This document shows, piece after piece, positions 3,083-19,756 of a DNA stretch of 64,000 bases. This DNA comes from Natrinema saccharevitans (GTDB lineage: Archaea; Halobacteriota; Halobacteria; Halobacteriales; Natrialbaceae), in contig NZ_LWLN01000001.1 in the NCBI RefSeq assembly GCF_001953745.1, positions 3,100,001-3,164,000 on the forward strand, in the 5' to 3' direction. The notes beneath the pieces were generated by a model. It saw nothing but the letters and a program-made list of their open reading frames with translations. It had not been told where the DNA came from and made no database searches. Within the stretch, counting starts at the first letter, position 1. Every line of letters begins with the position of its first letter. A program made the position numbers and the translations under genes.

Positions 3083-4065
3083 CGGGTCACCCCCGATTCG
3101 GCTGCGGTCGCGTTCGTCTCGGCCGTCACCGTTATCTCCTCGTTCTCGGCCGCGTCGCCGTTCGTCAAGGCGGTGAACAGCGACTCGAGGGAGACCTCCT
3201 CGATCCGCACGTCCGCGATCGTCGCGCCCGCGCCGGCGACGGCGGTCACGACATCGGCCTTCGCGGCCGGATCGGTGACCGTACACTCGAGGGTCCGCCC
3301 GGACGCGGTCACGTCGTCGATCCCGGACAGGTCGCGGAGGAGGTCGCAGGCGTCGGCCGCGCTCCGATCGGCCAAGGTCAGCGTCATCGTCGCACCGCCG
3401 CCGAGTTCCTCGCGCAGCCCTGCGATCGTGTCGACGGCGACGAGTTCGCCCTCGTTCAACACGCCGACCCGATCACAAACCGCCTCGACGTGTTCGAGGA
3501 TGTGACTCGAGAAGAAGACGGTCGTCCCGCGCTCGGCCTCGCGACGGACGAGGTCCTGCATCTCGCGGATGCCGTGAGGGTCGAGCCCGGTGGAGGGCTC
3601 GTCCATGATCAGCAGGTCGGGGTCGCCGACCAGCGCCATGCCGGTCGCGAGCCGCTGGCGCATCCCCTTCGAGTAGTCGCCGGCCGGCCGCTCGACGTCC
3701 GCGGCGTCGAGCCCGACCCGCTCGAGGAGTTCGTCGGGATCGTCGTCGGCTCCTTTCGTCTTCGCGGCGAACTCGATGTGGCGGCGGCCGGACAGCCGGG
3801 GGTAGACGTCGAATCCCTCGGGGAGGACGCCGACGCGGGGGCTGATCGCGTCGGCCTCGGCCTGCGCGTCGTAGCCGAGTACGGTCGCCGACCCCGCGGT
3901 CGGCCGCGCGAAGTCGAGCAACATGTTGATCGTCGTCGACTTCCCCGCCCCGTTGGGGCCGAGGAAGCCGAACACCTCGCCGTCGTCGACGGTCAGGCTC
4001 AGGTCGTCGACGGCGGTGAGATCGCCGTACTCCTTGGTCAGACCGGTCGTTTCGATGGCAACCAT
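3079..4065 (-). CDS. ABC transporter ATP-binding protein
   Basis: 328 aa. Contains Walker A GPNGAGKST, ABC signature YSKGMRQRL, Walker B LLIMDEPSTGLDPHG and the H-loop SSHILEH, followed by the ~100-residue C-terminal domain common in drug and nitrous-oxide-type exporters. The ATG at 4065 (MVAIETTGLTKEYGD) is preferred over the GTG at 4089 because a TATA-like CCTATACA on this strand lies about 28 bp upstream of it, typical of leaderless starts. It forms an operon with the permease. The divergent HTH gene may regulate it, which is inferred from position only. Confidence 0.9.
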   Translation of the reverse strand: MVAIETTGLTKEYGDLTAVDDLSLTVDDGEVFGFLGPNGAGKSTTINMLLDFARPTAGSATVLGYDAQAEADAISPRVGVLPEGFDVYPRLSGRRHIEFAAKTKGADDDPDELLERVGLDAADVERPAGDYSKGMRQRLATGMALVGDPDLLIMDEPSTGLDPHGIREMQDLVRREAERGTTVFFSSHILEHVEAVCDRVGVLNEGELVAVDTIAGLREELGGGATMTLTLADRSAADACDLLRDLSGIDDVTASGRTLECTVTDPAAKADVVTAVAGAGATIADVRIEEVSLESLFTALTNGDAAENEEITVTAETNATAAESGVTR

Positions 4066-17595: not shown

Positions 17596-19443
17596 TCACC
17601 CGTCGGTGTCCCAGACGTCCGCCAGCGGACTCGAGCGGGTCGACCGTCGCGATCCGCTCGAGCGGGTCGACCGTCCGGACCCGCCGCTCCCGTCGGCGTC
17701 GGACCCGGTCGTCGCCGTGCGCGAGCCGGTTCGGGACCCGCGGCCGGAACGACCGCCCGCGTCCGTTCCTTCGAGCGCGGCCCGGGGCTCGAACGCCGGC
17801 AGTTCCGGCCGTTCCATCCGGTCGACTTGGGCGGCGAACCAGTCGGGCATGTCCGTCCGCGCCCGCTCGAAGCAATCGAGCAGGCTCGAGTCGGCCAGAT
17901 ACGTCGCGCCGTAGTCGTCGGGAGCGCGGACGACCCGGCCGCAGGCCTGGATGACCGTCCGCAGCGTCGTCCGGTAGTACCACGCCCACTGGCCCTCCTC
18001 TAAGCGGTGGGCGACCCTCGAGTCGCCGGTGTTGAGGAAGGGGGCCTTGCAGATGACCTGCCAGCGACAGAGATCGCCCTTGAGATCGAGTGCCTCCTCC
18101 ATCTTCACCGAGAGGAAGACGTCGGGGTCGTCGCCCGCCTTCCAGGCCTCGAGGGCGGCGTCGCGGCCGTCCCGGTCGTGGGTTCGAATCCGGTCGCCGA
18201 CGCCGAAGTCCGAGAGCAGGTCGGCGAGTCGCTCCTGAATGTCGTAGGAGTGGGCGTGGATCAGCCCCTTCTCGCCGGGGTGGCGTTGCATCAACCGGAC
18301 GATCGTCCGGGCGATCTTCGGCGTCGTTTCCGACCGCTCGTCGTAGGTCATCTTCCCCTGTGTCACGTCGTACAGCGGCCGATTTTCCACGGGGAAGGTG
18401 TGCTCGACGTCGACTAGCGCCACCCGATCGGGCTCGAGGCCGACCTGTCGGCAGAACGCGTCCTTGTTCAGAATGGTCGCCGACAGGAGCGCGAACTTGT
18501 TGCCCCGGTCCCAGACGGTGTGTTGCAGGTACTTCTCGGGGTTCATCGGCTTGATCGTCAGGGGACCGCCCTGCGGGTCGTCCCCGTCGCCGTCTCCTCG
18601 GCCGGAGCGCGACTCGGACTGGTCGACCAGCCACGTCGTCGGGCTCTGGGGGTCGCGAAAGTCGGCAACGAACCACTCGAGGTCGCCGATGAGTTCCTGC
18701 AAGCGGTCGCGTTCGCGCACCTCGGCGGGGGACAGCGAGTCCTGTGCGAGCAGGTCGTCTTTGCGGCGCTTGCAGGTCCCGGCGAGGTTCTCGGCGTAGC
18801 GGACGGCGCGCTCGACGGAGTCGACTTCGGGGACCCGCAGGTCGTCCCAGAACGGGACGGTGCGTGGCCCGAGTTGGATCGTCGCGTACATCTCGGCCCA
18901 CTCGGCGAGGCCGTGGGCCTCGTCGACGACCACGACGTCGCGCTTGCGGAAGACCTCGCTGCCGGCGGTCTGCATGAAATAGGCGAGCGTCATCGCCGCA
19001 ACCGCCCGGTTCGAGGCGATCGCGCGGTCGGAGAAGTACGGACACCGGTGTTTGACCGAGCAGTCGTACCCCCGCTCCCGAACGCAGGGGGCCTGATTGA
19101 CCGGCGTGTCCCGTTCCTCGGGCAGGATGCAGGCGTAGTTTGACTTCCCGCGGATGACGTTGAGATCGGCCAGCAGGTCGTCGGCGGCCACGTCGTCGAG
19201 TTGAGAGACCTGCGGAGTCGTGTAGTAGGCCCCGGTGGCGTCGCTGGGCTCGCCCTCGTCCGCGCGGCGCGCACAACCGGCGACGGCGCGGGCCAAGAGG
19301 GACTTACCGCTCCCGGTCGGCGCGCGCACGAGGACGACGTCGTTACCGGCCGCGAAGGCGTCGCGAACGTCGCGGAGGGCCTGTTCCTGCGTCCCGCGGT
19401 AACTCGGCGCGGGGAACTCCTCGAAGATCCGCTCGGGATTCAC
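17596..19443 (-). CDS. XPD/Rad3-family ATP-dependent DNA helicase
   Basis: 615 aa, superfamily 2. Walker A APTGSGKS (41-48), DEAH box VVVDEAHGL (174-177) and motif VI QACGRVVRAPDDYG are visible. Four cysteines at 105, 120, 128 and 134 fit the XPD/FancJ [4Fe-4S] cluster domain. It is a 5'-3' helicase likely used in DNA repair. The C-terminal ~70 residues are a Gly/Ser/Arg/Thr-rich tail with an internal near-repeat (GRSTRSSG, SRRSTRSS), probably disordered. It is convergent with the 28-aa peptide gene. Confidence 0.93.
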   Translation of the reverse strand: MNPERIFEEFPAPSYRGTQEQALRDVRDAFAAGNDVVLVRAPTGSGKSLLARAVAGCARRADEGEPSDATGAYYTTPQVSQLDDVAADDLLADLNVIRGKSNYACILPEERDTPVNQAPCVRERGYDCSVKHRCPYFSDRAIASNRAVAAMTLAYFMQTAGSEVFRKRDVVVVDEAHGLAEWAEMYATIQLGPRTVPFWDDLRVPEVDSVERAVRYAENLAGTCKRRKDDLLAQDSLSPAEVRERDRLQELIGDLEWFVADFRDPQSPTTWLVDQSESRSGRGDGDGDDPQGGPLTIKPMNPEKYLQHTVWDRGNKFALLSATILNKDAFCRQVGLEPDRVALVDVEHTFPVENRPLYDVTQGKMTYDERSETTPKIARTIVRLMQRHPGEKGLIHAHSYDIQERLADLLSDFGVGDRIRTHDRDGRDAALEAWKAGDDPDVFLSVKMEEALDLKGDLCRWQVICKAPFLNTGDSRVAHRLEEGQWAWYYRTTLRTVIQACGRVVRAPDDYGATYLADSSLLDCFERARTDMPDWFAAQVDRMERPELPAFEPRAALEGTDAGGRSGRGSRTGSRTATTGSDADGSGGSGRSTRSSGSRRSTRSSPLADVWDTDG

Positions 19444-19551: not shown

Positions 19552-19667
19552 GCGGCAGAAACAGCCGTCTACCGAGCGGTAGCAGCTACCTACCGGCGAC
19601 GGCGGTTCGCGACCGGGCCGGTAACCGACTGATTACAAATACGGAATCCGCCCTTCGGTTCAGGTAC

Positions 19668-19756
19668 GGAAGGGTCGCTCAGCGGTAGAGCACCGCGGTG
19701 CCACCTGGTTCCGCGGCGGCGTCAAGCCTCGTGGCGTTCGAATCCCACCCCTTCCG
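19668..19756 (+). tRNA. Atypical tRNA-like gene, 14-nt anticodon loop
   Basis: 89 nt. A perfect 7-bp acceptor stem (GGAAGGG/CCCTTCC), U8, a 4-bp D stem (GCTC/GAGC) with loop AGCGGTA carrying A14, GG and A21, and T loop TTCGAAT are all visible. The T stem pairs 5 bp only if one C is bulged (GTGG-C-G with CCCAC). The anticodon stem CCGCG/CGCGG closes a 14-nt loop, GTGCCACCTGGTTC, which reads as two 7-nt loops in tandem: T-GCC-A and T-GGT-T. A 14-nt variable region (GGC/GCC stem) follows. TTACAAATAC ~30 bp upstream resembles a box A promoter. It may be a real unusual tRNA, an intron-bearing tRNA, a tRNA-like RNA or a pseudogene; identity is not assigned. Confidence 0.55.

Follow-up and report, generated by a model that had tools for sequence, protein, structure and literature searches.

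A conserved halobacterial RNA gene family with a tRNA-like body and no anticodon loop

The element at positions 19668-19756 (forward strand) of the window, i.e. the whole 64,000-nt stretch of Natrinema saccharevitans DNA that was analysed, belongs to an RNA gene family that is conserved in Halobacteria. It is probably an independently transcribed small RNA gene, whose product would be a non-decoding tRNA mimic that binds a tRNA-handling protein outside translation. The RNA measures 89 nt and CCA is not encoded; its parts are listed in Table 1.

Table 1. Features of the locus and its surroundings, in window coordinates
Feature	Position	Strand	Evidence or remark
TATA-like box ATTACAAATA	19632..19641	+	27-36 nt upstream of the RNA; kept as ATTACAAA among Natrinema loci
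Entire non-decoding tRNA-like RNA	19668..19756	+	RF00005 34.3 bits; family model R1 94.3 bits; conserved in relatives
Acceptor 5' strand GGAAGGG	19668..19674	+	Same in 30/30 sequences of alignment A1
U8 and D arm GCTC-AGCGGTA-GAGC, class I type, with A14/G15/G18/G19	19675..19691	+	100% paired; A1 columns invariant
Position 26 and extended hairpin replacing the anticodon arm	19692..19716	+	Fold; hypervariable in relatives; covarying stem
Variable region, GGC-GTCAA-GCC hairpin, then U47, C48	19717..19730	+	G-C to A-U covariation in relatives; tRNA-Ser-like
T arm GTGG[C]G-TTCGAAT-CCCAC, one additional 5'-strand base	19731..19748	+	Extra base in 30/30; 50-64 covaries
Acceptor 3' strand CCCTTCC and discriminator G73	19749..19756	+	Acceptor invariant in A1; purine 73 in 148/149
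Rad3-like helicase gene, divergent neighbour (context only)	17596..19443	-	Pfam Helicase_C_2/DEAD_2; synteny group A

End-to-end alignment of the locus to Rfam RF00005 scored 34.3 bits against a gathering score of 29, and recovered the cloverleaf with its acceptor, D and T arms and tertiary determinants (invariant columns in relatives); a 5-bp anticodon stem with a 7-nt loop and an uninterrupted 5-bp T stem were not found. The whole-window Rfam run did not pick up the locus, which was apparently lost to speed filters, and ARAGORN, proposed as a check in the initial annotation, called no tRNA or tmRNA at this place in the window, while the copies in relatives were called Leu, Gly, Arg or "???". 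Annotation tools miss such genes or assign them a random tRNA identity.

The initial annotation had described a tRNA-like locus that is not random sequence. Its coordinates proved exact, and the acceptor (7 of 7 bp paired), U8, the D arm and the T loop are as it described; the bulged C in the T stem is real (GTGG[C]G/CCCAC), and so is the combination of a class I D arm with a 14-nt variable region, which folds as a small GGC...GCC hairpin. The 14-nt anticodon loop, read at the time as two successive 7-nt loops, fared less well: a 5-bp stem can close 14 nt, but the two loops are a reading artefact, as a 6+3 bp fold is better. In this minimum-energy fold the central arm is CCGCGG-U-GCC-ACCU-GGU-U-CCGCGG, i.e. 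6 bp, a U.U and 3 bp, closed by an ACCU tetraloop (z = -3.3).

At the DNA level, a search across 61 genomes detected the RNA in each of the 28 same-genus relatives, as well as in several other genera. With an exact pattern (acceptor, D arm and T arm fixed, the middle free), matches were obtained in 111 of 391 Halobacteria genomes, spread over 34 of 86 genera, against 0 matches for a reversed-pattern control. This is an undercount, as the pattern insisted on G73 and allowed only a short middle. A covariance model listed 150 matches scoring 68.4 bits or more, in 142 genomes, and a sample of second-tier matches that was inspected consisted entirely of the same RNA. A model score of about 65 bits or more was required for membership of the family; matches in Halobacteria below about 58 bits are ordinary tRNA-Ser, as are matches with E~1e-7 in genus g13 and others. 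Presence outside Halobacteria was rejected, since the phylum-wide matches fetched from outside the class (up to 64 bits) were ordinary tRNA-Ser too. Among the named hosts are Natrinema, Natrialba, Natronorubrum, Natronococcus, Halorussus, Haladaptatus, Halobellus, Halogranum and Haloferax species, whereas in many genera the family is absent or was not detected (e.g. genus g13, family f12), so that some lineages can do without its function. The usual copy number is one. Some genomes carry two divergent copies: L084/L085 (genus g6), L088 and L102 (family f7) and L074/L103 (genus g63). Within the window, a weak sub-threshold match to the family model at 3574-3671 (+; 16.8 bits) is probably due to chance.

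Altogether, 149 distinct family sequences were collected. The pattern used for this collection itself demanded the extra T-stem base and C48, and the constancy of these two was judged on an alignment of 30 diverse sequences (A1) and on independent covariance-model matches. In A1 the acceptor GGAAGGG/CCCUUCC is unchanged throughout, and U8, A14, G15, G18, G19, C48, most T-loop bases and the final acceptor positions are constant. In every case the 5' strand of the T stem is six bases long (GUGG[C]G, GCG[U]GG or GUG[U]GG) and faces CCCAC or CCCGC, so that all 30 sequences contain the extra base, and the T-stem pair 50-64 is divided 15:15 between U-A and C-G. Covariation is seen in the central, variable and T stems. 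Position 73 is G in 116, A in 32 and C in 1 of the 149 sequences. A bulge-less and anticodon-less relative (L293:1548-1632, reverse strand), with a GAAAGGG acceptor and a CCACCG-UCG-CGGUGG arm, is followed within a few bases by a tRNA-Gly(TCC) and may be an intermediate or a second subfamily; it shows that near relatives do not all have the additional T-stem base.

Where the acceptor and elbow are frozen, the region from the D stem to C48 is free: it spans 27-72 nt in the 149 sequences, and its sequence varies freely. It nearly always opens with a stable hairpin (mean z for the whole region -3.2 against mononucleotide shuffles), the apical loops of which are mostly 3-5 nt, as in CCACC-GCU-GGUGG or CCACCGG-UUUU-CCGGUGG, and the stem, which reaches about 17 bp in L212, shows two-sided changes where it can be aligned. 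At least four of the five canonical anticodon-stem pairs are kept in only 8 of the 149 sequences, from which no common anticodon could be recovered. Because the 7-nt loop is missing, codon reading is impossible, and the anticodon, previously held to be undecidable between GCC and GGU, is absent rather than undecided. In family f4 and similar (L119, L195, L211, L213, L092, L103) a GCCAGA-type motif is kept at the hairpin tip, which may be a lineage-specific binding site.

Upstream of the RNA, the A+T fraction at -35 to -26 rises to 0.62-0.76 over the 149 loci, versus a background of about 0.36. Judged by its placement, this peak is where an archaeal TATA box would lie if transcription began at or close to G1, to within a few bases, which argues for an independent gene. 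The ordinary tRNA genes of the genome have a similar, more diffuse upstream signal, and most of the 149 loci show no T-tract terminator in the first 120 bases after the RNA. Two settings predominate. In the own family the RNA is divergent from a rad3-like helicase gene (the neighbour in 7 of 21 wide loci), with TYW2- and NMD3-family genes nearby, while in other lineages it lies downstream of sdhCDBA, in several of them 74-339 nt after sdhA; the gene that follows it in the window is convergent. Neither a conserved operon nor a partner protein was found; the two syntenies are unrelated, and no functional link was drawn from them. Since the site and the neighbours change while the body of the RNA does not, the RNA constitutes a free-standing unit.

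Of the three options that had been offered for the locus, only that of a tRNA-derived RNA with another job has held. That the RNA is a functional tRNA interrupted by a short, non-canonical intron is highly improbable: archaeal tRNAs have introns at many positions, and the anticodon stem in the window could enclose one in its 14 nt, but the shortest family members (78-80 nt overall) have central regions of 27-30 nt, which are too small, with about 5 nt or less to spare, and exclude an intron of ordinary size. Moreover, the arm varies in both sequence and length, no anticodon is shared, and the genome has 47 other tRNA genes, among which ordinary ones supply Gly-GCC and Thr-GGT. That the locus could be a decaying tRNA gene, or the scar of a mobile element, is hardly credible either. 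The 3' ends of tRNAs are favoured integration sites, and partial T-arm copies do occur downstream in two other families, where two or three repeats of the T-arm/acceptor 3' end (L034:2303-2548; L038, about 1400-1690 on the reverse strand), spaced by about 103-120 nt and partly inverted, look like scars left by repeated integration at the gene; in the own genome, on the other hand, no att duplicate of the 3' end of the RNA is found, and two scans of viral contigs gave no family match. Mean identity within Natrinema is 93.7% for the RNA, versus 68.9% for the 60 bases upstream and 40.7% for the 80 bases downstream. A lack of conserved stems in relatives, along with a lack of expression, had been named as the mark of a pseudogene; the stems are in fact kept, with compensatory changes, and together with the flank comparison this rules out decay.

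Two further explanations grant the RNA a function. In one of them, the RNA would accept serine and pass it on to an enzyme outside the ribosome. SerRS ignores the anticodon and recognises its substrates via G73 and the long variable arm, and in the own family both G73 and the variable arm (GGC...GCC-TC) match tRNA-Ser. The variable arm and T arm are indeed nearest to Ser-TGA/GCT (the D arm being of class I type), and when the family model was run on the ordinary tRNAs of the own genome, the four Ser isoacceptors ranked above the others tested, the best reaching 48.6 bits versus 94.3 for the locus. From these similarities we infer that the RNA descended from, or was assembled out of, tRNA genes, with tRNA-Ser as the likely donor of its 3' half. 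As a present function, seryl acceptance is conceivable in the own family but nevertheless unlikely, because 32 of the 149 members have A73, members of the Haloferax and Haloarcula types have either lost the variable arm or show it in altered shape, and no serine-transfer enzyme is linked to the RNA in its genome neighbourhoods. The other explanation is a t-element, at which cutting by RNase P and tRNase Z would free an adjoining RNA. Such elements are established in Haloferax (PMC4326828), and the position of the RNA close behind sdhA in several lineages, at the distances given above, would suit a role of this kind. It is still quite improbable here, considering that the RNA has its own TATA-like box and points away from rad3 and towards the following gene, so that no mRNA is joined to it, that the downstream sequence is not conserved (41% identity) and contains no conserved RNA, and that the 5S region of the own genome gives no match to the family model, by which homology to the 5S t-element was rejected.

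For the non-decoding mimic, which is the preferred explanation, the following course of events can be proposed. Transcription would proceed from the RNA's own TATA box, starting at G1 or a few bases before it, and the transcript would adopt the L-shape of a tRNA, with acceptor, D/T elbow and a small variable arm, in which a lineage-specific structural hairpin without anticodon loop takes the place of the anticodon arm. Maturation would presumably be as for tRNAs, by RNase P and tRNase Z. The invariant acceptor and elbow could then engage a tRNA-handling protein, for which the RNA may serve as decoy, regulator or scaffold; the combination of a frozen acceptor and elbow with a free anticodon arm suggests that the partner is a single conserved protein. 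The T stem is the site where EF-Tu/EF1A grips a tRNA, and the extra base at this grip would probably prevent entry into elongation. As the RNA cannot read codons and has this additional base, work outside translation is most likely.

On balance, it seems that the haloarchaea possess a dedicated tRNA mimic that does not decode and belongs to a class of free-standing regulatory or carrier RNAs not so far known in Archaea. This mimic would control or feed a tRNA-handling enzyme outside translation. We know of no conserved archaeal gene family of non-decoding tRNA mimics, and stand-alone mimics without decoding are, to our knowledge, rare. The literature searched contained no description of a non-decoding archaeal tRNA-like RNA family; Hölzle 2012, on tRNA-like elements of Haloferax, lies outside that scope, and given that work novelty in Haloferax cannot be fully claimed. 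The presence of the family in Haloferax species makes it open to genetics.

With regard to known systems, the t-element of Haloferax volcanii is a tRNA-like processing signal upstream of the 5S rRNA (Hölzle 2008, 2012; used in PMC4326828). Both it and the RNA described here are tRNA-like and haloarchaeal, and from their structure both would be expected to be cut by RNase P and tRNase Z, but the t-element is joined to the 5S rRNA whereas the gene of the present RNA stands alone and has a promoter signal of its own. Canonical haloarchaeal tRNAs, and above all the class II tRNA-Ser, share with it the cloverleaf, the L-fold positions, the G73 and variable-arm sequence (in the own family) and the organisation as a TATA-driven small gene; unlike tRNA-Ser, it has no anticodon loop, an extra T-stem base, a class I D arm and an invariant acceptor. 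Its unusual acceptor-T domain, class II variable arm and possible role as a SerRS substrate recall tRNA-Sec, from which it differs by a 7-bp acceptor and by having neither a UCA anticodon nor a 9/4 or 8/5 arrangement. The tRNA-like module of bacterial Y RNA (YrlA) is also a tRNA mimic with a non-decoding arm, although the Y-RNA stem is missing here. A Y RNA/Ro60 type of partner was rejected, since the TROVE domain (PF05731) occurs in 0 of the 15 own-family genomes searched (the window's own and 14 others). Across 59 halobacterial genomes, TROVE-domain (Ro60-like) proteins (L283, L284, L285) are present in 7, none of them of the own family. Finally, while it is archaeal, far shorter (89 nt), and without a tag reading frame or G3-U70 (A3-U70 being invariant), the RNA resembles the tRNA-like domain of tmRNA in that the acceptor and T arm are likewise kept and a helix stands in place of the anticodon arm.
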